NCBI GenBank assembly: GCA_020073585.1
Contig: JAIQEV010000028.1
Coordinates: forward strand, 1 to 46,228
DNA length: 46,228 nucleotides
Origin: Terriglobia bacterium
GTDB taxonomy: Bacteria; Acidobacteriota; Terriglobia; Acidiferrales; UBA7541
Reading direction: 5' to 3'
The notes below the pieces were generated by a model, which was not told the DNA's origin, searched no databases, and saw only the letters and a program-made list of their open reading frames with translations. A program made the translations under genes and the position numbers. Positions 1 through 15,361 of the stretch are shown here, piece after piece; within the stretch, counting starts at the first letter, position 1; the number at the start of each line of letters is the position of its first letter.

Positions 1-2194
1 TGTAGGTTTGCTTGCTCGCGGCGCCCGTAATGACCTGCGCGCCGGCGGTCTGGTTGATAACGAAAGCCGTCCGCGTCAGCGCGGAATTCGCGCACGGGTC
101 CACGATGGCCGTGTTCGTGCCGTCGGTGATCTTCTGGAAGCCCGCGCGCGCCCCGGCGTCCATCGCCGGCATGGAGTTCGTGCCGTCGGTGACCTTCACC
201 GGCCACGCGCCGGCCAGCGCGGCCGCCGTGCCCTGGTTGGCGCTCGTGCTCGTGAGCGTCACCGCCTGCGCACTCGGGAAGACCACGTTGAAGGGATTCG
301 CCGATGTGCCGCCGGCCACCGCGCCGCCCGACGCCGGCAGCGCCAAGCCCACGAGCTTCATCGTCTGTACGCCCGCGCCGGTGTCGTAGTCCGCGGTGAT
401 CTCCGTGTTGACTTTGGTGTTCAGCGCGGAGAGCGTCGCTTCCGTCGCCGCGCCCGCCGGCAGCGGCAGGCTCGCCGCGGAAACCGGCTGCGTCGCTTGC
501 CAAAACGTCCCGGAAACCGGTTGCGTCGTCGTGCCCACGGGGTCCACGCGCAGCGCGGCTCCCGCGGTGCCGATCTCCGTTCCGCTGGCGTTGCGCAGAT
601 TGACGTGGAAGGCGCGGTTATTCGTGAGGCGCGCCGCGCCGCCCTGCCCGCTGGTCAGCGCGGCGATGGCGTCGTTGAAGACGCCGCCGCTCGGGGTGAA
701 TTGCGTCGTGCCGCCGGTGAAGGCGCCCGTGTCCGTCATGGCCGTTCCCCCGGTGCCGCCGCCGCAGCCGGAATCGCAGGTCATGTGGATCGAGCGCCCG
801 GCCGCGTCGCCCGTCGGCATGGAGTTGACGCCGTCCGTCACCTTCACCGGCCACGCGCCGCCCAGCGCGGCCGCCGTGCCCTGATTGGCGCTCGTGCTCG
901 CGAGCGTCACCGGCTGCGCCGTCGTGCCGGTAGGATCGGTGCGCAGGGGATTCGTGGACGTCCCGCCGGCCACCGCGCCGCCCGACGCCGGCAGGGCCAG
1001 GCCCGTGAGCTTCATCGTCTGCACGCCCACGCCCGTGTCGTAGTCGAGCGTCACTTCCGTGTTGACTTTCGTGTTCAGCGCGGAGAGCGTCGCTTCCGTC
1101 GCCGCGCCCGCCGGCAGCGGCAGGCTGGCCGCGCTCACCGGCTGCGTCGCCTGCCAGAATGTTCCGGTAACGGGCTGCGCGGTCGTCCCGGCCGGATCCA
1201 CGCGCACCGTGCCGTCGTTGGCCATGCGGATCGCATGAATGAAGCCGTCCGCGCCTTTCCCGGCGACCCACACGGGATTGTTGACGGGTGCCGCGCCTTC
1301 GGCCGCCGGGCCGCTGACGATGGGATCGCCGGGCACGTACTTCGATTGCGCCGCATTCCAGATGGGCACCTGGCCGTCGGAGCTCGGCGCGGCACTGTTG
1401 TTCAGCCCGCCATTCGCCACGCCCACAATGCCCAGCGTCGCCTTGACGTTTCCGAGCGAAGGGTTCGACCAGGTGATCGGCCCCTGGTCCTGGAAGTTGA
1501 CCGGATTCTGCGCCGCGAGCGCGATGCCGTTGAGCTGATGCGTCGCGCCCCCGCCGCCCGTCGCGGTGCAGTCCGTCGCCAGCGTCAGCGCGTTATCCGT
1601 GCAGCCGCCGCCCGTGAAATTCAAGATATTGCGGAGGGGCAAACTCACGCCCGCGTTTTGGACGGTGGAGTAGCCGGTATAGGTCGGCGCGGTGATTCCC
1701 GCGGCGGCCAGCGCGCCCCAGTCCGCGCTCACCTGCTGCGGGATCTGCTTATCCTCGCTCCAGGAGACGCTGGGAACCCGTCCGTCCGCGGAAGGAGCCA
1801 GCGTCACGAACGAGCGCATCACCAGGCCCGATGGCGTGCAGCCGATTTCGGGAACGAGGTCCACGCCGGCGGCGCCCGTGTAGTTATCCACCAGCGTGCC
1901 ATCGCCCTTGATCCACCCGCGCACGCGCTGCGGGAGGTAGGTGATTCCGCCGCAGAGGATCCGCGCGGGCTTGTTGCCCTGCGAATCGTAAGGCTGGAAA
2001 TCCACCGTGCCGTAGACGCCCACCGCGCCGATCGTGGCGATCTGCTTCAGCCCGGCCGCCGCGGGCGTCTTGCCTTCGGGTGTTTTGAATGTTCCGGTGA
2101 CGTGCGGAATGGTCTGCGCGGCCGCATTGCCCGCGCAGAAGAGGAAGAACGCGCAGAGGGCCGTGTATGGCCATCCGCGAAGAAGTCGTCGCAT
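1..2194 (-). CDS. Large secreted, internally repeated phage tail-like protein (C-terminus beyond window)
   Basis: The open frame starts at ATG 2194 (GGAGG 4 nt upstream) and runs without a stop for 731 codons off the left edge. The first ~27 residues form a clear signal peptide: MRRLLRGWPY, a hydrophobic core, then a cut after AAA or AAAQ. Residues ~30-230 resemble secreted/tail-associated domains. After that come Gly/Thr/Ala-rich repeats in which a block containing GTFWQATQPVSAASLPLPAG and ALNTKVNTE occurs twice, 654 nt apart. This repeat style is familiar from phage tail-fibre or virion-surface proteins. It follows an 87-nt gap, the widest at this end of the operon, so it may have its own promoter. 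An exported protein is unusual for a virion component; a cell-surface or receptor-modifying role is possible. It is masked by a long spurious antisense frame. Confidence 0.85.
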   Translation of the reverse strand, partial: MRRLLRGWPYTALCAFFLFCAGNAAAQTIPHVTGTFKTPEGKTPAAAGLKQIATIGAVGVYGTVDFQPYDSQGNKPARILCGGITYLPQRVRGWIKGDGTLVDNYTGAAGVDLVPEIGCTPSGLVMRSFVTLAPSADGRVPSVSWSEDKQIPQQVSADWGALAAAGITAPTYTGYSTVQNAGVSLPLRNILNFTGGGCTDNALTLATDCTATGGGGATHQLNGIALAAQNPVNFQDQGPITWSNPSLGNVKATLGIVGVANGGLNNSAAPSSDGQVPIWNAAQSKYVPGDPIVSGPAAEGAAPVNNPVWVAGKGADGFIHAIRMANDGTVRVDPAGTTAQPVTGTFWQATQPVSAASLPLPAGAATEATLSALNTKVNTEVTLDYDTGVGVQTMKLTGLALPASGGAVAGGTSTNPLRTDPTGTTAQPVTLASTSANQGTAAALGGAWPVKVTDGVNSMPTGDAAGRSIHMTCDSGCGGGTGGTAMTDTGAFTGGTTQFTPSGGVFNDAIAALTSGQGGAARLTNNRAFHVNLRNASGTEIGTAGAALRVDPVGTTTQPVSGTFWQATQPVSAASLPLPAGAATEATLSALNTKVNTEITADYDTGAGVQTMKLVGLALPASGGAVAGGTSANPFNVVFPSAQAVTLTSTSANQGTAAALAGAWPVKVTDGTNSMPAMDAGARAGFQKITDGTNTAIVDPCANSALTRTAFVINQTAGAQVITGAASKQTY
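168..1215. repeat. Two ~400-bp coding repeats, period about 654 bp
   Basis: Copies lie at roughly 168-561 and 816-1215. Long identical runs (for example from 421 and from 1075) are 654 nt apart. Another landmark (171 versus 819) is 648 nt apart, so the copies differ by a small indel. They encode the repeated GTFWQATQPVSAASLPLPAG region of the left-edge gene. Confidence 0.85.
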
Positions 2195-2571: not shown

Positions 2572-2763
2572 CTATCGATCGACGTAAAAGAACCTTCCGT
2601 CCTTCCGCTTGATGACCGTTCCTCGCCCGACGCAGGCCCACATCGCCAGCGCGGCTTCCATCCACGAAATCTTCAAGCTCTGTGCGATCTCGGATGGTCG
2701 CCAAAAGCGGCGATCAGCCTCCATCATTTGCTCCACTTTCAGGACCAGGCGCTGCGGGGTCAC
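2572..2763 (-). CDS. Small winged-helix-like DNA-binding protein
   Basis: 63 residues from GTG 2763, which overlaps the TGA of the preceding PolX-like gene (GTGA). The region RPSEIAQSLKISWMEAALAM reads as a helix-turn-helix, and the following GTVIKRKDGRFFYVDR looks like the beta-wing of a winged helix. This is inferred from pattern only. The tight coupling to the PolX-like gene suggests the two are made together; it may be a regulator or DNA-recruitment partner. Confidence 0.65.
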   Translation of the reverse strand: MTPQRLVLKVEQMMEADRRFWRPSEIAQSLKISWMEAALAMWACVGRGTVIKRKDGRFFYVDR

Positions 2764-3392
2764 GCCACGCCTCCCGGCAGCCACACCGGCCGCCCGTTTT
2801 TGCATTCGCGATCCGCCGGCAACGGAAGCGGCAGCCCCAGGGCCTTGAAGATTTCTTCCTCGGTTTGCGCGCGGATCACGCGCGAGTTCACCACGCGCTG
2901 CGCCAGCGGATCGTACTGGCCGGGCACCTCGAGGCCCGAGCCGTCGGCATGCAGCTTCCCGCCGCAAGCCTTCGCGCGCTGCGCCAGCCAGATGTTGTGC
3001 TCGGCCGAGCCGGTGCGGATCAGCAGCAGCGTCGCCCAACTCTCCGGCGTCGCGAGGTAGCAATCGACCTGGATCTCCCCGGCAGAGCCGGACTTTTCCC
3101 ACCTGGTCTTGAATCGGACGATCTTGTCGCCCATGCAGTTCGCCCGCGAAATGCCGTCATCATCCTCGGCGAAATCGAGCAGCGCGGCCATGAAGTCCGT
3201 CTCCGCCAGCGGCACGGGGCCGAAGAGCGAGGACTTCGAGGCGAACCGCGGAATCGCCACGAGGTCGATGTCGCCGATGGTGGGGCGCAGCCTGCGCAGC
3301 GAGCCCGCGATCTCGATGCGCTCGCAATGCGGCGCCAGGCCCTCGACGATCTTGTCCGCGACGAGGCGGCCGACGTGATGGGGAACTCTCAT
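2760..3392 (-). CDS. Minimal PolX-family (DNA polymerase beta-like) nucleotidyltransferase, palm + thumb only
   Basis: 210 residues from ATG 3392 (ATGA overlap with the upstream gene). Residues 30-45 hold the polymerase X signature GSLRR...GDIDLV, giving metal ligands D41 and D43. The third carboxylate is D110 in EIQVDCYL. Residues ~120-190 match the pol-beta thumb (TGSAEHN at 127-133, then TEEEIFKALGLP). The N-terminal 8-kDa lyase and fingers (HhH) domains of normal PolX enzymes are absent, as is the PHP exonuclease domain. With all three Asp present it is likely active, in gap filling, end processing or nucleotidyl transfer during transposition repair. The substrate is unknown. Confidence 0.85.
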   Translation of the reverse strand: MRVPHHVGRLVADKIVEGLAPHCERIEIAGSLRRLRPTIGDIDLVAIPRFASKSSLFGPVPLAETDFMAALLDFAEDDDGISRANCMGDKIVRFKTRWEKSGSAGEIQVDCYLATPESWATLLLIRTGSAEHNIWLAQRAKACGGKLHADGSGLEVPGQYDPLAQRVVNSRVIRAQTEEEIFKALGLPLPLPADRECKNGRPVWLPGGVA

Positions 3393-3562
3393 GCTTTTTC
3401 TCCCGCGGCACACTGCGGCTCTTCCCGCCCGAAAAGCAGATCCTGAATCTCGTCCATCGAGAACGTTTCCGGGCAATCCGCGCAGCGCCAGATGCCGTCG
3501 GCGAGGCGCTGGATGTTCGGGTGCTCGCATTCCTTGTAGCCGTCGCCCTGGCTGTCGCTCAT
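3389..3562 (-). CDS. Small zinc-knuckle protein
   Basis: 57 residues from ATG 3562. The stop overlaps the start of the PolX-like gene (ATGA), and the start overlaps the stop of its own upstream gene in the same way. ECEH near residues 11-14 and WRCADC near 26-30 provide Cys/His ligands for one zinc site. It resembles the many short zinc-ribbon proteins of phage early regions; function unknown. Confidence 0.7.
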   Translation of the reverse strand: MSDSQGDGYKECEHPNIQRLADGIWRCADCPETFSMDEIQDLLFGREEPQCAAGEKA

Positions 3563-3945
3563 GCGGCCTCCTGCGCCTGCTTCGAAGTCCGCCGTTTGAC
3601 GCCTGCTTTGTACTTCTTCAGGTATTCCCTCCGGCAGGAGCGGCAGATGTTGTTGCCGTGAAGGCGGCCGGATCCGTCGCTCACTCCTCCGCAGCCCGGG
3701 CAGCTTTTCCGCGCCATCTTCGCGGCCTCGTCATCGCTCGGCAGGTGAGGGGCCACGCGGCCGCACCCCGCGATGGGGCAGCGCCAGGCCCTGCGGGCCA
3801 GCGCGGCCGCTTTCTCCTCCGCGTCGTCCGTGTTCAGATGGATCCACCGCGGCGCGGGCATGGGCACGAGCTCCATCCTCGCTCCGGTATGCAGCGGACA
3901 ATGCGGCGCGGCGGCGCCCGCCGACCGCCGGCGAAGGCGGATCAT
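3559..3945 (-). CDS. Double zinc-ribbon phage protein
   Basis: 128 residues from ATG 3945, overlapping the preceding TGA. Two putative metal sites are visible: WRCPIAGCGR with KSCPGCGG in the middle, and NICRSCRREY near the C-terminus, followed by a lysine-rich tail. Such modules usually bind nucleic acid. It sits between an OB-fold-like gene and a zinc-knuckle gene, all translationally coupled. No specific family assigned. Confidence 0.7.
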   Translation of the reverse strand: MIRLRRRSAGAAAPHCPLHTGARMELVPMPAPRWIHLNTDDAEEKAAALARRAWRCPIAGCGRVAPHLPSDDEAAKMARKSCPGCGGVSDGSGRLHGNNICRSCRREYLKKYKAGVKRRTSKQAQEAA

Positions 3946-4404: not shown

Positions 4405-5181
4405 TCAGTAGTTGCGGATCAGCAGCTCGGTGGCCTTTTTCCAGAGGCCGCCCTGCAGCCCGTAGCGAGTCTTCACCTGCTCGATCGTCACGCCGCGCGT
4501 GCGATAGAGGTTCCGGATGAACTTGTCGTCGTTGTAACTCAGCAGCCACTTGCCTTTCACGCTCTGTTGCAGGACGTCGGCCAGCCGCGCGTGATCCTCG
4601 TCCGTGAAGTAGTGCCGGTAGGCCTTCGCGCTCTCTACGTGATAAGGCGGATCCACGTAGAAGAACGTCGCCGGAGTGTCGTAGGACTCGACGCACTTCT
4701 CCCACGGCAGCCGCTCGACCCACACGATCCGCAGCCGGTCGATGACCTTCTTCACTTCTTCCTTCGCTTCCGGCCAATACAGTTCCGGCCGCTTCATCCG
4801 CCGGATGCCGAAATGGTTCTTCACCCGCTTCGCCCCGTAGGCGATGCGCAGCACGGCGTAGAATTTCACCGCGCGCGCGATCTCCCCGCCGATGCCCGGC
4901 AGCTCCCGCCATTCCTGGAACAGTTCCCGCGAGGCCAGCAGCCAGCTCGCCGCCTCCGTGAACTCCGCGGGCCGGTGCTTCACCACGCGCCAGAAGTTGA
5001 TCAGCTCCCCGTCCATGTCGTTCAGCACTTCCGACTTCGACGTCGCGGGGTCCTTGCCGAAGAGCACCCAGGCCGCGCCCGAGAAGAGCTCCACGTAGCA
5101 AACGTGCTCCGGAAACCTCTTCAGGATTTCCTCGCGCAGCCGTGATTTCCCGCCTACCCATCGCAGTGGACTCCTGAGCAT
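4405..5181 (-). CDS. Dam-type DNA N6-adenine methyltransferase
   Basis: 258 residues from ATG 5181 (AAGGA six bases upstream). WVGGKSRL at 8-15 is the start of the SAM-binding region, ELFSGAAWV at 31-39 is motif I, and DPPY at 177-180 is catalytic motif IV. This arrangement is typical of the D12/Dam class. Phage orphan methylases of this class protect phage DNA from host restriction or control transposition and packaging. No restriction gene is adjacent. It follows a 146-nt gap containing a strong hairpin, so it may be expressed separately from the genes before it. Confidence 0.93.
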   Translation of the reverse strand: MLRSPLRWVGGKSRLREEILKRFPEHVCYVELFSGAAWVLFGKDPATSKSEVLNDMDGELINFWRVVKHRPAEFTEAASWLLASRELFQEWRELPGIGGEIARAVKFYAVLRIAYGAKRVKNHFGIRRMKRPELYWPEAKEEVKKVIDRLRIVWVERLPWEKCVESYDTPATFFYVDPPYHVESAKAYRHYFTDEDHARLADVLQQSVKGKWLLSYNDDKFIRNLYRTRGVTIEQVKTRYGLQGGLWKKATELLIRNY

Positions 5182-5288
5182 GCATTTTCCTTTTCGGCAC
5201 CGTTCGGTTTCAGTTACCATCTCCCACGTTCGTCATGGCGAACTGGGAGGCGGCCCCGAACGGGCTGTTTGGAGTTCATGCTCCATTC

Positions 5289-5318
5289 GTCCTGGTTCCG
5301 CGCTAACGGGACCAGGAC
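5289..5318. other. 30-nt near-perfect hairpin in the gap before the Dam-type gene
   Basis: Minus strand: GTCCTGGTCCCG, loop, CGGAACCAGGAC. Thirteen positions pair (one a G-T wobble), with a single C-A mismatch and a 4-nt loop. No T-run follows on either side, so it is not a classic intrinsic terminator. It lies in one of the few non-coding gaps of the early operon and could be an attenuator, processing site or protein-binding site. Confidence 0.75.
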
Positions 5319-5327
5319 GCCTTCCGA

Positions 5328-5564
5328 CTAAACTCTTTCGCGGCCTTCTTTGCTCTGCGCCAGCTCGCGCAACATCTTCATGTGGCCATTCTTGCGCAGT
5401 TTGCGGATCGCGCTCCGGTACAGCATCCATGCGCCGCCTGGCGTGATGCCGAGCGCGCGGCCGATCTCCGCAAAGGTTCGCTCGCCTTCAGCCGGCGCGC
5501 CCGCCGAAGCCTGCGCCCCAGCTCCTGCGGTGGCGCAAGCCTGTTCCTGGCGAAGGCGGGTCAC
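5328..5564 (-). CDS. Sigma-70 region 4-like HTH protein
   Basis: 78 residues from GTG 5564, overlapping the preceding TGA. Residues ~29-57, RTFAEIGRALGITPGGAWML then a basic RSAIRKLRK helix, follow the region-4 HTH pattern of sigma factors. A separate region 2 is absent, so it is not a full sigma factor. Position late in the early operon fits a regulator of middle or late transcription, functionally comparable to Mu Mor/C, although it is not visibly homologous to them. Confidence 0.72.
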   Translation of the reverse strand: MTRLRQEQACATAGAGAQASAGAPAEGERTFAEIGRALGITPGGAWMLYRSAIRKLRKNGHMKMLRELAQSKEGRERV

Positions 5565-5959
5565 GCCGCCTCCCTGGGAAACGGAAAGATCAGCGTCAGG
5601 CGGCCGCGGTCCTTGGGATCGAGCCCCGCGGCCACGGCGTTGCCGTCCTCGACGTTTCCGCAGAAGACCGCCAGGTAAGCGTCGAGGCAGCGGTATTTGT
5701 CCTTCCACGCTTTCGCCAGCGCGGGGCCCCGCATGGTCTTGGCCATCTCTTCGAATTCGGCGACGGCCTCGGGGAAGAATTCCTTCACCCGCCGCTTGTG
5801 CGCTTCCCAGCAGCCCTTCTTCCGCGCGCAGCCGCCGCAATAGGCGTTGCCGGACGGCGCCGGCCCGTGCGCCGCCAGGCTCCAGCCGCTGCCGAATCCG
5901 AAGTAGCCGAAGCAGTTGAGCTGCTCCTCGATCTTCAGGAGCAAAGGTCCGGAGCTCAT
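5561..5959 (-). CDS. Phage protein with Cys-rich N-terminal cluster, unknown
   Basis: 132 residues from ATG 5959, which overlaps the TGA of the upstream zinc-knuckle gene. Four cysteines (in QLNCFG, AYCGGCARKKGCW) could form a metal site within the first ~50 residues. The rest is helical (VKEFFPEAVAEFEEMAK) and ends in a hydrophobic strand. I do not recognise the family. It is coupled to the sigma-region-4-like gene downstream. Confidence 0.68.
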   Translation of the reverse strand: MSSGPLLLKIEEQLNCFGYFGFGSGWSLAAHGPAPSGNAYCGGCARKKGCWEAHKRRVKEFFPEAVAEFEEMAKTMRGPALAKAWKDKYRCLDAYLAVFCGNVEDGNAVAAGLDPKDRGRLTLIFPFPREAA

Positions 5960-6107: not shown

Positions 6108-6311
6108 TCACGCGGCCTCCGACTGAATCGCCACTTCCATCTCATGGCGCGGACAATATTTGTGGCCAGGATCCGCGACGTAGCGGCAGGGAATCTCCTG
6201 ATAGCAAAGGAACGCCCCGTTCTCGTTTTCCCATTCGGACCGGTCTATCTGGAAGTTCCCGAGAGACTTCATGAAGACCGGTATGCGCTTTATCCACTCA
6301 CACTGTTTCAC
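6108..6311 (-). CDS. Small Cys/His-containing phage protein
   Basis: 67 residues from GTG 6311 (GTGA overlap with the preceding stop). The C-terminal half has FLCYQEIPCRYVADPGHKYC followed by PRH, giving Cys and His residues spaced for one zinc site. The N-terminal half is polar. No family recognised. Confidence 0.6.
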   Translation of the reverse strand: MKQCEWIKRIPVFMKSLGNFQIDRSEWENENGAFLCYQEIPCRYVADPGHKYCPRHEMEVAIQSEAA

Positions 6312-6778
6312 GCGGCCTCCTTGGGCTTTCCGGCTTCGGCATCGAGCTGCAGCATGGCCTGGCCGAAGAGGCGGGCGACGTCGGTCTTGGACGTCAGCGC
6401 GCGCAGCCGCCGCAGATGCGCGTAGACCTCGCCCCACAGCGGATGAATCGCCAGATCGAGATCTCCGGCGCTGGCGATCAGGAAATAGCCGTAGGGCTTC
6501 ATGCGCAGGCCGCCGATGGGGATGCGGTAGAGCAGCACCGCGGTCTCGACCACGCCGGCGATCTCCCGCCGCGCGCGCTCGCACCATGCCATTCCCGCCT
6601 GCCTCGCCACTTCTTCCGCGCGGATGGCCTGCGCCGCGCCCCGGTGCCCGGCAATCACCCGCAGGACCTCCTTCTCGCGCTCGCTCAGTAGCGCCGAGCG
6701 CAGTGCCGCGGCGACCTTGGCGTCGAGCTCCGCCCAGCGGTCGGTCAGCGTCACCCCGAATTGGAGCTGCTCGGTCAC
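6308..6778 (-). CDS. Winged-helix-like phage regulatory protein
   Basis: 156 residues from GTG 6778, which overlaps the TGA of the upstream gene. Residues ~33-85 (LSEREKEVLRVIAGHRGAAQ, then an EVARQAGM segment and an IGGLRMKPYGYFLI strand pair) look like a winged helix of the kind common in phage replication/regulatory proteins. The C-terminal part is helical. DNA binding is inferred from fold pattern only. Confidence 0.65.
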   Translation of the reverse strand: MTEQLQFGVTLTDRWAELDAKVAAALRSALLSEREKEVLRVIAGHRGAAQAIRAEEVARQAGMAWCERARREIAGVVETAVLLYRIPIGGLRMKPYGYFLIASAGDLDLAIHPLWGEVYAHLRRLRALTSKTDVARLFGQAMLQLDAEAGKPKEAA

Positions 6779-6978
6779 TGGGCCTCGACGACCGATTTTT
6801 TGAGCTTCTTCACCGCATGCAAGTGGTACTCGGCGACGAACGTGTAGTCCTCGTCGTCATCCACGGCGTCGTCGCGATTGCCATATGCAAGAAAGTCCTT
6901 GCCATCCTCCTCGTCTGCCAAGCTTGGATTGCTTTCGCGGCGAACGAACATCGCCTTCGGAAAGATTTTTTCGTCCAT
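6775..6978 (-). CDS. Small acidic phage protein
   Basis: 67 residues from ATG 6978. The start shares one base with a TGA at 6980-6978 (TGATG) in the frame that continues the split gene upstream, a coupling typical of this operon. The middle is strongly acidic (DDAVDDDEDY), and the C-terminus is a lysine-rich helix. Function unknown; DNA mimicry is a speculation I would not press. Confidence 0.6.
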   Translation of the reverse strand: MDEKIFPKAMFVRRESNPSLADEEDGKDFLAYGNRDDAVDDDEDYTFVAEYHLHAVKKLKKSVVEAQ

Positions 6979-7504
6979 CAGTTCACCTCCGGCAGCCGAT
7001 TCAAAAGCGCCGCCTTCTTCTCAAGCGGCAATGCCGCCCAGATCCCGTCGCAGAGTTCCGGAGTCGCTATAAGTACAGGTTTCAAAGGCGTGCCGCTGAG
7101 CAAAGATTTCGCGGCCCGGCCGCGCCGAGCGGCCGCGGAGCTTTTGGGACGCCCCCCCCCCCATGCTTCCCGCCGTTTGCCTTAACAATCGCGTTCACCG
7201 TGCCCCATGCCATGCCATGTTTCGTCGCAATCGCGTTGATGCCCATCCCCGCGGCATGATCTTCCAGGATCTTCGCCCTCGTCCCTTCATCGGTCCGTTT
7301 CGGCATCGCCTTTTCCTCCTTCGTCGTCTCTATAGCCGCTCTGGCGGCAGCCACCGGGGAGATCCCGCGCGTCTCGGGCGGCATCCCCAGCCGCTTCCGC
7401 ATGTGCTCGTCGCAGACCGGCGTCCTTCCGATCAGCCGCGTGGCCTTCACCTCGAGCTGCAGGTCGCGGCAATCCCTGCACAATGGATCCGAAAAAGGCG
7501 CCAT
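6978..7504 (-). pseudogene. HTH + zinc-knuckle gene split by a G11 tract (frameshifted or slippage-expressed)
   Basis: From ATG 7504 (TGATG overlap) the frame encodes a CRDC...CDEH metal site, then a resolvase-type HTH around RAKILEDHAAGMGINAIATK. It reaches a run of 11 G at 7162-7152 and then stops at 7082 after unrelated low-complexity sequence. In the -1 frame after the run, the reading continues as RPKSSAAARR...KPVLIATPELCDGIWAALP and ends in a TGA at 6980-6978 that overlaps the next start exactly as elsewhere in the operon. A 12-G (or 9-G) tract would restore one ~175-residue protein with a GRPK AT-hook-like linker. Sequencing error, mutation, phase variation and programmed slippage are all possible. 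Confidence 0.72.
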
Positions 7505-9928: not shown

Positions 9929-10105
9929 TCACCTGGGGAACCACCCGAGATCCGAGAAGATCAGCGACAGCCCCGCCGCCGCGAGGATCATGCAGAGGAA
10001 CGCCAGGCGCGCCCTCCGGGGATCCGCGAAGAACACTTCCAGGCGGCTGTTCATCCGCCGCACCCGCTCCTGCCGCTCCCAAACGTGTTCGTGAAGTTCC
10101 CGCAT
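9929..10105 (-). CDS. Small single-pass membrane protein next to the MuB-like gene
   Basis: 58 residues from ATG 10105, overlapping the TGA of the ATPase gene (TGATG). The first ~30 residues are charged (ELHEHVWERQERVRRMNSRL). Residues ~34-51 (LAFLCMILAAAGLSLIFS) form one transmembrane helix near the C-terminus. It may be a tail-anchored protein or a holin-like accessory; nothing more specific can be said. Confidence 0.65.
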   Translation of the reverse strand: MRELHEHVWERQERVRRMNSRLEVFFADPRRARLAFLCMILAAAGLSLIFSDLGWFPR

Positions 10106-11178
10106 CACGCCACCTCCTTTTTCCCGCCCGCCAACACCCGGCCCAGATTCGCGTGCTTTTGCTGGCGCACCTTGTGGAGCAGCCGCCGCGCCGAGTAGTA
10201 CTTCCGCGGGGCCGACTGCCGGCCCTCGGCGTCGCTGGCGTACAGGTCCTCGACCTCGCACGCCTCCAGCAGCTTTTCCTCCTGCGCCGGCGTGAACTTC
10301 GCCTTCGTGCCGTTCCCCCAGGCGCGCGCGGCGATCTCGATCACTTCCTCGCGGCTCATGCCCTCGAGCTGGATGCGGTTGGGCAGGCGCGAGAGCCACT
10401 GCTCGAGCCGCGGGCGCGCCGCCGGATGCATGAAGTTGCGGAAGAGGTTGTGGCTGCCGGCCAGGATGATTCCGCAGCCCGGCCGGTTCTTGCGCCGCGT
10501 GCGATCGTGCAGCGCGCGGATTATTTCCAGCGTTTCCACGGGCAGGTGCTGCGCTTCGTCGAAGACCAGCGCCGGCGGGAAGGGGCGCGCGTCGAACGCC
10601 GCCAGCAGCGCATTGATGTAGCGCTCGCGCGTCCATGCGCGCGCCACCCACACTTCCGCTTCGCGGGCGATCCGCGAGAGCAGCGCCAAGGGCGAGATGC
10701 CGGGGTCGCAATAGACGTACAGGGCGCCGGCTTCCCCCGCCGCGCGCCGCTCCGCGATCAGGTTCTCCAGCACGAAGCTCTTCTCCGCCGAGGGCGGCCC
10801 GTAGATCAGCGAATTGATTCCTCCCTCGACGGCCTCCTCGAAGCACCTGCGGATCTCCCGGTAACCCCGCGTGGCCAGCATCGTTTGCGCGTGCCCGTGT
10901 TCCCGCGGCTTGGGCCAGTTGCGGTTGCAGAAGTCCCACACCCGCGCGTCCATCCAGCGGGTGTCGTTGCCCGCGCCGTGCTCCCGGTAGCCGCCCCGCA
11001 GATAGACCAGGATGGTGGAACGCCCGCCGCGCCCGAATTCCCGCTGAATTTCCTCTCCGAATTGCGCCGCGGACATTCCGCTGCGCGCGCAGAATTCGTT
11101 CCCGCGCGCCACGCACTGCTCGTGAGGGGGCGGATTCACCGCGCGGAGGAAGTTTTGCTCAGTCGTCGGCAGCGGCAT
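10105..11178 (-). CDS. MuB-like AAA+ ATPase (transposition target-DNA protein)
   Basis: 357 residues from ATG 11178. The ATG at 11184 abuts the GGAGG, so the second ATG with 6-nt spacing is preferred. Residues 1-100 contain an N-terminal DNA-binding-like region (EQCVARGNEFCARSGMSAAQ). The ATPase core has GPPSAEKS at 127-134 as P-loop, ALVFDEAQ at 203-210 as Walker B, and ILAGSHN near 238 as sensor I. The P-loop has Glu where the glycine before Lys is normally found. Mu B binds target DNA as ATP-dependent filaments and delivers it to the transposase. Position directly after, and overlapping, the transposase gene supports this role. Confidence 0.88.
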   Translation of the reverse strand: MPLPTTEQNFLRAVNPPPHEQCVARGNEFCARSGMSAAQFGEEIQREFGRGGRSTILVYLRGGYREHGAGNDTRWMDARVWDFCNRNWPKPREHGHAQTMLATRGYREIRRCFEEAVEGGINSLIYGPPSAEKSFVLENLIAERRAAGEAGALYVYCDPGISPLALLSRIAREAEVWVARAWTRERYINALLAAFDARPFPPALVFDEAQHLPVETLEIIRALHDRTRRKNRPGCGIILAGSHNLFRNFMHPAARPRLEQWLSRLPNRIQLEGMSREEVIEIAARAWGNGTKAKFTPAQEEKLLEACEVEDLYASDAEGRQSAPRKYYSARRLLHKVRQQKHANLGRVLAGGKKEVA

Positions 11179-13225
11179 CGCCATCCTCCAGTGCGACCTC
11201 GGCGAAAACCTCCGCGTCGGCCGCGATGGTGTCGGAAACGAACGCCGCCCGCGGCTTCCTCGCCGGCGGCGGAAGCTGCGCCGGGCCGCGCAGCGCGCCC
11301 GGAGCGGCGGCGCTCAGCAGCCGGCCGTCCGATCCCGTGCGCGCGAGCGCGCGGCCGACGAGCGCTTCGCGCTCCGTCTGCCAGCCCAGGCTTGCGGCGA
11401 TCGCGGAAAGCGCCGCGAGATATTCCGCGTAGCCTCGCCGCAGCGCGCGCTCGCGGCGCATCCCCGCCTTGATCTGGTCGCGGGTGATCTGTCCGTTGGG
11501 GCATTGCGCCACCAGCTCCTGGATGCGCAGCTCGCCCAGGAACTGCAGCGTCTCGGGATCCGCCGCCACCGCTTCGCCCAGGTTGTAGGGATCGCGCAGG
11601 ATCATCGCCTGCTGGCCCTTGCGCACGTCCAGCGCGAAGAGACTGGCATCCGTCGGCTCGTAGCGCATGCCGTCGAGCTGCACGCAGCCTCCGGCCTGGA
11701 TCACCCGCTTGTCGCGCTCGCTGAAAAGCACGTCCAGGAGCCGGGGATTGATCTGCGGGCGGTTGCGTTCCGGGTACTGTTCGTTCATCACTTCGTTCGG
11801 CGTGCGGTGCTGCAGCGCCCCGAGCGGCGCGTCGTTGAACTCCTCGATCCACTGCATGGCCGCGAGGATGAATTCCGCGTCCGTCGGCAGGGGGCTATCC
11901 GCGCGCCGCCCTTTCAAATGCTTCTGGTGCAGCGCCTCCGCCGTCCGCGCGCTCTCCGGCTTGTTCCCCGGCTGGTTTCCGAGATACGCCGGGCGCCACA
12001 GCACGTCGAAGCGTCGCGACCAGCGCGTGAAGTAAGCCTCGATCGGCTTCGAGCGCGGATGGAACGGCAGCGCGCTGGTGATCCCGATGCTCTCGCGTCC
12101 CATCACGGCCTTGGCCTCGTCGGACAGCGTGATCAGCTCGAGATCCCGGCGCACTTTCTTGTAGTCCTCGCCGTTGTCCCAGTAGAAGTTCTGCGGGAAG
12201 CCGTGGGAGAGAACCGCCAGGCGCAGCGCGGAATTGATCGTGCGCGAGGAAGGCGTCGGGGCGAAGCACCAGCCGACGATTTTGCGCGTGCCCCAATCGT
12301 AGATCGCCGTCAGCCACGGGCGGTAGGCTTCCTCCGGCTTCAGCTCCGCGAAGAGCGTGTTGCGCACCAGCACGTCGAACTTGCGGTGATCGGAGATCCA
12401 CCACTCCATCGCCGGGCGCGGCCCGCGCTGCAGGAATGGCGAGCACCTCTTCCCGTGGGCTTCCGGCCCCTCGCGGCCCAGCACGCGCAAGGGCTCGGGC
12501 AGCGTATTCAGAAAGCGCCGCGCGGCGTTGTAGGAAGGGGCGGCTCCCGCCTTCTCGATCTGCTTCCATTCGCGGCGCAGCGCTTCCCAGCACATCTGCC
12601 GCGACAATCCCTCCTCGAGGAATTTGCGGTGCAGGAAGACGGCGGCGGCGGCGTGCTCCTCGAAGAAACGCGAGCGGCCCCGGTCCTTGCGCGGCCGTTC
12701 GGCCAGCGCCGCGTAGCCGCCGGCCTCGAAACGGTCGAGCCAGCGGAAAAGCGTGCGCGAAGAAACCGCCGGGCGCTGCTGCCCGGCCAGGTATTCCGCG
12801 AGATCGTTTAGCGTGTCCACCTTGCGCCCGCCGGGAAGCTCGATCACCGGGCGGTGCCCGTTGGTCCGCCGGCGAAAATCCAGCAACGGTTCGATGGCCG
12901 TGAGGCGCGCGCGCACCTGGTCCTCGAGGCCTTCCGGAACCGCCAGGCGCGCGGCGGCCGAAACCTCGGGGAGCGCGGCAAATAGCGGCAGTGAGTCCGG
13001 GGAGTGCCGCGGAACGATCGCCAGCGCGGCCTTCTGCCCCGCGCCCGCCGCGTATTTGAGCTGCGCTTTCGCCGGCAGGGAGCTCAACAGGTATTCGCGT
13101 TCGCGCTTGCCGTTGGAAGCCGCCGACCCCGAAAGGCGCGCCGCGTTCAGCGCGCGGCGCACATGCCGGCCTGTCCAAGCCGTCAGTTCCATCACCTGTT
13201 CAGTGCTGAGCCAGACGTCAGCCAC
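11159..13225 (-). CDS. MuA-like DDE transposase
   Basis: 688 residues from GTG 13225 (8-nt overlap with the gene before). Residues ~5-35 form a Mu-type N-terminal HTH (STEQVMELTAWTGRHVRRAL). Residues ~95-245 contain further DNA-binding helices. The RNase-H core has D279 (ISDHRKFDV), D350 (YWDNGEDYKK) and E396 (SKPIEAYF), the expected DDE triad. Residues ~490-560 are the Mu-type C-terminal beta-barrel, and the tail presumably contacts the MuB-like ATPase. Length is close to MuA (663). It would pair the prophage ends through sites such as those at 17,025-17,204. It appears intact. Confidence 0.96.
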   Translation of the reverse strand: MADVWLSTEQVMELTAWTGRHVRRALNAARLSGSAASNGKREREYLLSSLPAKAQLKYAAGAGQKAALAIVPRHSPDSLPLFAALPEVSAAARLAVPEGLEDQVRARLTAIEPLLDFRRRTNGHRPVIELPGGRKVDTLNDLAEYLAGQQRPAVSSRTLFRWLDRFEAGGYAALAERPRKDRGRSRFFEEHAAAAVFLHRKFLEEGLSRQMCWEALRREWKQIEKAGAAPSYNAARRFLNTLPEPLRVLGREGPEAHGKRCSPFLQRGPRPAMEWWISDHRKFDVLVRNTLFAELKPEEAYRPWLTAIYDWGTRKIVGWCFAPTPSSRTINSALRLAVLSHGFPQNFYWDNGEDYKKVRRDLELITLSDEAKAVMGRESIGITSALPFHPRSKPIEAYFTRWSRRFDVLWRPAYLGNQPGNKPESARTAEALHQKHLKGRRADSPLPTDAEFILAAMQWIEEFNDAPLGALQHRTPNEVMNEQYPERNRPQINPRLLDVLFSERDKRVIQAGGCVQLDGMRYEPTDASLFALDVRKGQQAMILRDPYNLGEAVAADPETLQFLGELRIQELVAQCPNGQITRDQIKAGMRRERALRRGYAEYLAALSAIAASLGWQTEREALVGRALARTGSDGRLLSAAAPGALRGPAQLPPPARKPRAAFVSDTIAADAEVFAEVALEDGDAAADD

Positions 13226-14622: not shown

Positions 14623-15026
14623 CACCGCGCTCCAGCTTTCACCGCAGTTTTGATTTGCCCCGTCCAGAAGGCCGGCCGTAATCTGCCCGCGCGCACTTCC
14701 TTGCGGACGGCGGAGATGAGCACGTCGATCAGGTCGAGCGAATTCCACGGATGGCCCAGCTCGCGCAGCATGCCTTCGAGGAACTCGCGGTTTTCCTGGG
14801 AGAGGAAGCCGAGCGTGATCACCTGGCGCACGCACCAGGTGCAGAACGGCCCGACCAGGGGATCGCCGTCGCCGTACTTCCGCCGGCGCGCTTCGTCGTA
14901 GGCCCGCGCGTGCAGCTCGGGCTCCAGGCGGATCGTCACCAGCTTGCGCGTGTCGATCCCCATCAGCAGCGGTGCGTGCAGCGCGGCGGCTTGGCCGCCG
15001 AAGCCATTCAGGCGTAGGAGACTCAT
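14622..15026 (-). CDS. Phage early protein, unknown
   Basis: 134 residues from ATG 15026 (ATGA overlap). The central region TRKLVTIRLEPELHARAYDE resembles the start of a ribbon-helix-helix-type segment. It is followed by FCTWCVRQVITLGFLSQENR and a helical C-terminus. DNA binding is plausible from position between Ner-like and ASCH genes, but no family is assigned. Confidence 0.62.
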   Translation of the reverse strand: MSLLRLNGFGGQAAALHAPLLMGIDTRKLVTIRLEPELHARAYDEARRRKYGDGDPLVGPFCTWCVRQVITLGFLSQENREFLEGMLRELGHPWNSLDLIDVLISAVRKEVRAGRLRPAFWTGQIKTAVKAGAR

Positions 15027-15361
15027 GCGGCCCTCCCGGGGAGAAGTTCCTTGAGGCGTTCGAAAATGCGGTCGGCGATTAGAGAGGCCAGCTTTTCGAT
15101 GTCACCGAGTTCCGGGCGGCGCGCCGGCTGCTGGACGTGCACGTCGAACCAGCGGTGCAGCACCGACGGCGCCAGCCGTTTGGGAGAAAATTCGCGGGAT
15201 AGCTCCGCGATCTCTTCCCACGTCTTTCCCTCGGCTCGCAGCTCCTTAATCCGGTCGCGCACTTTGGCTGGCAGCGTGTTGATCCAAAAGTGCTGGTGCA
15301 CCCTCCGCGGCTCGCCGGTCCGGGGCCGCTTGTACCCGGGACGGTGCTCGCCCCGGCTCAT
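15023..15361 (-). CDS. HTH phage protein, weakly like Mu gp27/DUF3486
   Basis: 112 residues from ATG 15361 (ATGA overlap). The sequence WINTLPAKVRDRIKELRAEG, then KTWEEIAELS, then a region before HRWF, reads as an HTH of the kind seen in Mu gp27-like (DUF3486) proteins. The basic N-terminus and a helical C-terminal part (DIEKLASLIADRIFERLKEL) suggest DNA binding with oligomerisation. The family assignment is tentative. Confidence 0.62.
   Translation of the reverse strand: MSRGEHRPGYKRPRTGEPRRVHQHFWINTLPAKVRDRIKELRAEGKTWEEIAELSREFSPKRLAPSVLHRWFDVHVQQPARRPELGDIEKLASLIADRIFERLKELLPGRAA

Follow-up and report, generated by a model that had tools for sequence, protein, structure and literature searches.

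We describe here a small gene for a predicted family X DNA polymerase (PolX), carried by what appears to be a Mu-type transposable prophage of a Terriglobia bacterium. The window, by which we mean the whole 46,228-nucleotide stretch of DNA analyzed, is phage-like from about 1 to 15.4 kb and host-like from about 17.4 kb, as judged by eye from the translations, and the PolX product (P0001) is encoded in a phage-like block that the contig end truncates, with a Mu-type transposase gene 7.8 kb upstream of it (Table 1). The genes are ordered along the strand as transposase, AAA ATPase, small genes, Dam methyltransferase, two small Cys-rich genes, PolX, and a 63-aa gene. A DDE transposase and an adjacent AAA ATPase, by which we class an element as Mu-type, are both present, and the profile matches of these two proteins bear out the transposable setting proposed in the initial annotation; residues D279, D350, and E396 of the transposase are invariant in a four-row alignment (A7). 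The contig begins inside the element, and in the closest relative locus, L047, an endolysin gene lies further downstream. L047 has a transposase 67% identical to that of the window, an AAA gene, and then PolX, directly followed by a gene for a 1295-aa protein whose relative in the window is cut by the window start. In a quick PolX tree the window groups with its four closest relatives, L047, L048, L049, and L050, in a single supported set (SH-aLRT 97). A search for the element ends with a guessed Mu-end pattern gave chance-level numbers. We also note a segment at 15023-15361 (-), upstream of the transposase, whose relative in L049 instead lies some 9 kb downstream of PolX, a placement that possibly reflects a rearranged element end.

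Table 1. Features of the phage-like part of the window. Positions are nucleotides of the window, except for the motifs, which are given as residues of P0001.
Feature	Position	Strand	Basis and remarks
Long protein, start only (cut by contig end)	1..2194	(-)	Start codon by eye; relative of the L047 1295-aa protein
63-aa protein	2572..2763	(-)	GTG start overlaps PolX stop; best Pfam match DnaD_N, E 0.25
Predicted minimal PolX P0001, 210 aa	2760..3392	(-)	Palm ~1-120, thumb 123-197; Pfam, alignment, AlphaFold2 model
P0001 motifs	G30-S31-x-R33-R34; D41, D43, D110; IRTGS 125-129		Sequence/alignment
57-aa Cys/His protein	3389..3562	(-)	Stop overlaps PolX start; sub-threshold Pfam match to Ribosomal_L37ae (E 0.0013)
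105-aa protein with Cys pairs (zinc-knuckle-like by eye)	3559..3876	(-)	Relatives in L049, L050
Dam-type N6-adenine DNA methyltransferase	4405..5220	(-)	MethyltransfD12 E 9e-27; phrog_56 E 4e-70
156-aa protein, phrog_2113	6308..6778	(-)	Relatives in L047, L048, L049, L050
AAA ATPase, MuB position	10105..11184	(-)	AAA_22 E 1e-12; relatives in L047, L048, L050
Mu-type DDE transposase, 688 aa	11159..13225	(-)	phrog_310 E 3e-85

The PolX gene overlaps both of its neighbors by four bases (ATGA at 3389-3392 and GTGA at 2760-2763), an arrangement that fits coupling of PolX to each. The initial annotation had described coupled winged-helix and zinc-knuckle genes at this place; the overlaps agree with the coupling, but the winged-helix and zinc assignments find no Pfam match above cut-off. 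The same PolX-winged-helix-zinc cluster was sought in other loci and is not a conserved module: in the other loci searched no relative of the 63-aa or the 57-aa gene turned up, and the 105-aa gene recurs only in L049 and L050. Judged by gene order, the PolX block may be an early operon. We considered that the gene might be a mis-assigned host PolX, which is ruled out by its position in one strand block with the transposase, the AAA gene, and Dam. Host-type PolX in the class lies mostly in ~600-aa frames, and among the places listed only two frames are shorter than 431 aa, one of 285 aa in the window and one of 205 aa in G383.

The open reading frame is translated without an internal stop, and residues 123-196 match the Pfam family DNA_pol_B_thumb (PF14791; E 2e-10, 40.8 bits against a cut-off of 25). 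DNA_pol_B_palm scores only E 0.019, under the Pfam cut-off, and PHROGs returns no match up to E 0.1. An AlphaFold2 model, computed from an 89-row alignment (A2, 88 family sequences plus P0001), has a mean pLDDT of 91.7 and a pTM of 0.87, and its top Foldseek match is Pol lambda (E 7e-14). With VIA-align, residues 1-197 of the model superimpose on Pol lambda 385-575 (Z 18.9), and Pol beta 148-335 (Z 18.6) and T. thermophilus PolX 156-327 also align; the 50 structural matches listed are family X DNA polymerases throughout. D41, D43, and D110 coincide with the PolX acidic triad in the alignment, the GS motif of the palm is present, as is a Pol beta-type C-terminal thumb with its TGS motif, and because P0001 starts at the palm start and stops past the thumb it has no 8-kDa, fingers, or PHP part. 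The structure prediction that the initial annotation had called for thus sustains its reading of a three-Asp active site and a pol-beta thumb in a protein otherwise stripped of these domains, and the assignment of P0001 as a palm-plus-thumb family X polymerase holds for the predicted fold. From this fold and the intact motifs we infer that the enzyme is active.

P0001 belongs to a sizeable family. A protein scan of uncultured virus contigs gave 23 relatives and an alignment-based rescan 206 viral loci, the best 80 of which were retained, and cellular genomes (one per species) contributed 53 loci with a PolX of this type. A family profile recovers PolX in 147 of 148 loci, with a median reading frame of 185 aa. 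Of its 151 matches, 139 cover the full short domain (median 170 aa), which rules out that these are truncated versions of a full-length PolX. With the 12 partial matches set aside and identical sequences merged, 130 distinct sequences remain, the window's included, with viral origin established for part of them only. Among 50,697 GenBank phage records a single Vibrio phage matches P0001, and a second member of the family has no match in them; the palm and thumb of that phage, 2.275.O, lie at L044:3695-4459 in a 349-kb record where the protein is annotated as hypothetical. One transposable-phage record, L071, has two PolX-like genes (5090-5632 and 6555-7127), the first of which is divergent at the GS/RR motif by eye, and L112 likewise gave two PolX matches. 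Minimal PolX genes also occur in contigs binned as Candidatus Bathyarchaeota (L125, L129, L130, L131, L132, L149, and L155). Two matches in an actinobacterial plasmid collection were considered as PolX2 and rejected, their frames of 619 and 630 aa resembling full PolX with a C-terminal PHP domain.

The catalytic center is strongly conserved across the 130 family sequences. Residue 41 is aspartate in every row, residue 43 is aspartate in 54 and glutamate in 76, and residue 110 is aspartate in 127 and glutamate in three; G30, R33, and R34 are kept in all 130 and S31 in 129. Acidity at the triad positions is above chance. The initial annotation had reckoned with homologues that all lack the Asp triad, and this is not what we see, yet glutamate at the second position is the commoner state. 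The latter, together with the unusual pocket described below, could be taken to indicate that P0001 is a nucleotidyltransferase with a substrate other than DNA (RNA, a protein, or a signal), or else a regulator with no catalytic activity, a reading we hold to be highly improbable given the acidic residues in all 130 rows, the complete thumb, and structural matches that are family X DNA polymerases.

The surroundings of the active site are quite different. We compared the family with 47 PolX proteins encoded in the bacterial class of the host (mostly ~600-aa frames), assigning the Pol beta equivalents by counting along the conserved stretch from D256 to R283. At position 112 (Pol beta R258) all 47 host proteins have arginine, whereas 129 of the 130 family members have F, Y, or W and one has a gap. 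Position 125 (Y271) is tyrosine in 47/47 host sequences but isoleucine in 104 and cysteine in 19 of the family, and position 126 (F272) is phenylalanine in all host PolX and arginine in the entire family. Position 137 (R283) is arginine in each of the 47 and L, A, V, C, M, I, S, or T, never R, in the family; P0001 itself has I125, R126, and A137. In Pol beta, Y271 is described as the steric gate (PMC9226535), R258 and F272 as a switch that frees D192 (PMC12362244), and R283 as moving the templating base into position (PMC6237750). The steric-gate motif of canonical prokaryotic PolX is reported as YF in 54.3% and HF in 40% (PMC9226535). P0001 has neither, with I125-R126 in its place, although other accepted PolX proteins also deviate and P0001 is thus a variant still within family X.

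The constancy at positions 125-133 is partly a product of selection, because these residues formed part of the scan patterns (125-133 in the viral-contig pattern and 124-133 in the cellular-genome pattern). The first scan used six patterns that did not include residues 125-130, one of them spanning 131-138, and residue 112 was absent from every pattern. Free of such selection, R126 is present in all 22 loci aligned after the first scan and in 16/16 first-scan rows retained in the 130-sequence set. A profile search of the class also turned up L224, from a different genome, with Y112, I125, R126, and C137. Viral PolX is not always altered in the pocket, since the Vibrio phage protein has R112, H125, Y126, and R137. 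We thus show by computation a joint, family-wide change at four positions predicted to handle the nucleotide and the template, with the catalytic motifs kept.

Searches of the window's genome, which is 97% complete, turned up no second PolX; a sub-threshold thumb match on contig 55 (E 0.84) was rejected, as it overlies other genes by eye. Across the class, 256 of 299 genomes have a PolX match, the window's genome counted. As P0001 is the only PolX found in its host, the element might supply an activity that the host is missing. Three listed genus mates also have no PolX match, although one of them (G020) matched in another search, and such absences therefore vary with the search used and with gaps in the assemblies.

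The family appears to be over-represented in Mu-like phages. A phrog_310 transposase, detected with a profile built independently of the PolX loci, is present in 14 of 92 distinct PolX-bearing viral records and in 1 of 128 arbitrary viral contigs, the latter drawn with two arbitrary 15-mers (1/80, plus 0/48 from a second draw of 80 of which the 48 of at least 15 kb were used). When both sets are confined to records of at least 15 kb the counts are 14/72 and 1/99 (Fisher p 2e-5). PolX shares its strand with the transposase in 14/14 records and always lies within 7.5 kb of it, downstream in twelve (2.0-7.4 kb) and upstream in two (2.7 and 3.1 kb). The sample was ranked by similarity to P0001, and the transposase becomes rarer down the ranking (10 of the first 50 records, 2 of the last 30). 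Because of this ranking, the lack of independence among records, and a control unmatched for temperate life, the size of the enrichment is uncertain. Seven of the 78 PolX-bearing records without phrog_310 carry a MuB-like AAA or a Gam-like gene, which is weaker evidence as it comes from our own profiles. Searches of viral contigs for relatives of the transposase returned only records already in the sample.

The initial annotation had proposed that P0001 fills the 5-bp gaps left at transposition target sites, and one reading of these data is that it is dedicated to that task after strand transfer, independently of the host machinery. The enrichment and the shared strand fit this, as does the failure to find another PolX in the host genome, and Mu gaps are reported to require repair (PMC3325207). 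However, 78 of the 92 records have no phrog_310 transposase, and the transposase label is scattered on the PolX tree, with 14 changes for 15 tips; counted by groups, there are 10 changes against a shuffled mean of 11.6, with 117 of 500 shuffles as low (the tree included every fourth host PolX, 11 rows, together with the Vibrio row and L224). Such scatter rules out that PolX marks a single lineage of transposable phages. Of 25 other transposase places in same-class genomes, 17 were fetched and six excluded as having too little downstream sequence; the remaining 11, which are transposase loci rather than established phages, have about 15 kb downstream and none has a PolX, so PolX is optional. 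The single Vibrio phage match in GenBank also counts against a transposition-specific enzyme, as does the missing R283 equivalent, and plain templated filling of a 5-nt gap is not the obvious prediction for a pocket altered on both its dNTP and template sides. A role for P0001 in transposition is plausible, but a function restricted to target-site gaps we regard as unlikely.

The neighborhoods of PolX are varied. A Gam-like family lies about 6 kb or less from PolX in 12/147 loci, upstream in 11, and two members that were tested match PF07352 (E 4e-15) and phrog_491 (E 2e-32); among the loci, L009 and L109 are one record. This proximity again favors a gap filler, but no Gam was found in the window's genome, and a pairing of a Ku-like Gam with PolX in the window's phage is rejected for that reason. 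The same absence weighs against a template-independent enzyme of the TdT or Pol mu kind that tails or joins the ends of phage DNA, which the initial annotation had also raised. P0001 has no 8-kDa domain to take the 5' phosphate of a gap and would have lost both the steric gate and the template-side R283 equivalent, as might be expected of such an enzyme, although the idea is deduced from residues and we judge it very unlikely. In 13/147 loci an ASCH-domain family (one member tested, PF04266) lies about 6 kb or less from PolX, for example at L106:6908-7402 and L009:7560-7973, and another family, also of 13 loci, is ASCH-like by eye but has no Pfam match. Neighbor rates (transposase, AAA, Gam, integrase, C5 methylase, ASCH, and Dam) derive from profiles trained on PolX neighbors and from shorter control loci, and we do not use them as evidence.

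A tyrosine-integrase family (one member tested) is found about 6 kb or less from PolX in 27/147 loci, and together with the broad spread of the family over 206 viral and 53 cellular-genome loci this could indicate a generic phage base-excision polymerase unconnected with transposition. Such a polymerase would resemble African swine fever virus PolX, with which P0001 shares the palm-plus-thumb architecture (PMC13252658). This explanation leaves the transposase enrichment and the family-specific substitutions unaccounted for, and no AP endonuclease or glycosylase was seen among ten neighbor-family proteins scanned, a small part of the neighbors; we consider it somewhat unlikely.

Our preferred explanation, to which we give about an even chance, is that a Mu-type transposable prophage encodes in P0001 a minimal family X nucleotidyltransferase with catalytic competence, and that the enzyme would lengthen 3' ends by a nucleotide or a few, either inside short gaps or at the ends of the phage's own DNA. 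Its selection of sugar, base, and template would be relaxed, because the Y271 gate is replaced by I or C, the R258-F272 pair has become an aromatic-arginine pair, and R283 is gone. In transposable phages its substrates would also be the short gaps that strand transfer leaves behind, and in other phages the enzyme may act in short-patch repair or end processing. This explanation and its rivals overlap, and our estimates for them do not sum to one. A bolder version, which we think quite unlikely, is that the gate, the switch, and the template arginine were replaced together in a distinct PolX subfamily of uncultured phages that is constitutively active, ribonucleotide-tolerant, and weakly templated, and that Mu-type phages have recruited it repeatedly for closing transposition gaps or joining ends independently of host recombination.

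Searching titles and abstract openings of the open-access literature, we found no description of a phage PolX of this kind. A methylophage gene is annotated as 'DNA polymerase beta' (PMC9004378), and the main text of a 12-cluster PolX classification does not contain the words phage, virus, or viral (PMC12362244). What appears to be new is the joint change at four pocket positions in a viral-type minimal PolX, the palm-plus-thumb form having a known precedent in African swine fever virus PolX. Repair of transposition gaps is unsettled for most elements; the gap-filling polymerase once assumed for Mu in E. coli has been displaced by PriA/DnaT and RecABC (PMC3325207). A PolX borne on a transposable phage would be a candidate for a dedicated gap-repair enzyme. 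A natural polymerase of ~160-210 aa in which four fidelity-related Pol beta residues are changed would also offer a test of catalysis versus selection, and small PolX scaffolds are reported to be wanted for template-free DNA synthesis (PMC13252658).

The closest architectural parallel is African swine fever virus PolX, which likewise consists of palm plus thumb with no 8-kDa domain or fingers (PMC13252658). The family profile detects it (1jaj, E 1e-12) but gives higher scores to T. thermophilus PolX and Pol lambda, both of which are nearer in sequence. The viral PolX is described elsewhere as having neither the thumb nor the 8-kDa domain (PMC5330486); the two accounts conflict because they use opposite names for the same subdomain. 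The viral enzyme has an aromatic residue, F102, at the R258 position as does our family, but F116 at the F272 position where the family has arginine (PMC5330486). By spacing, its H115 and R127 fall at the Y271 and R283 positions, where the family has mostly I or C and never R, respectively, and P0001, with I125 and A137 there, has no counterpart of the His115-Arg127 platform.

Bacterial PolX1, which carries PHP, is homologous to P0001 in the palm and thumb, and the best PDB profile match is T. thermophilus PolX (E 2e-22); the NCBIfam model NF006375 reaches E 5e-7, although its 28.6 bits are far below the 426-bit cut-off. PolX1 is described with 8-kDa and PHP domains (PMC12926913), both absent from P0001, and the host PolX proteins of the class retain Y, F, R, and R at the pocket positions that are altered in the family. 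PolX2 is reported to have no 8-kDa or PHP domain, a conserved polymerase site, and viral members, all of which recall P0001, but also an extra alpha-helical C-terminal domain (PMC12926913) that is absent from the P0001 model, in which no helix of at least four residues follows 178-184; the two are set apart here by the published description of PolX2. Pol lambda and Pol beta share the predicted fold of P0001 but possess the 8-kDa and fingers domains, and relative to Pol beta P0001 is altered at the steric gate, at the R258 and F272 positions, and at R283.

Phage Mu and its relatives have, as in the window, a transposase (phrog_310) followed by an AAA ATPase, although among the 50,697 GenBank phage records only the Vibrio phage matches P0001, and a further difference from Mu is that the search of the window's genome gave no Gam. 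The initial annotation had suggested that P0001 provides a repair step that Mu takes from its host; PMC3325207 agrees that the host repairs the Mu gaps, but what it names in E. coli is PriA/DnaT and RecABC and not a gap-filling polymerase. A phage-borne gap filler would therefore differ from the repair of Mu in E. coli.
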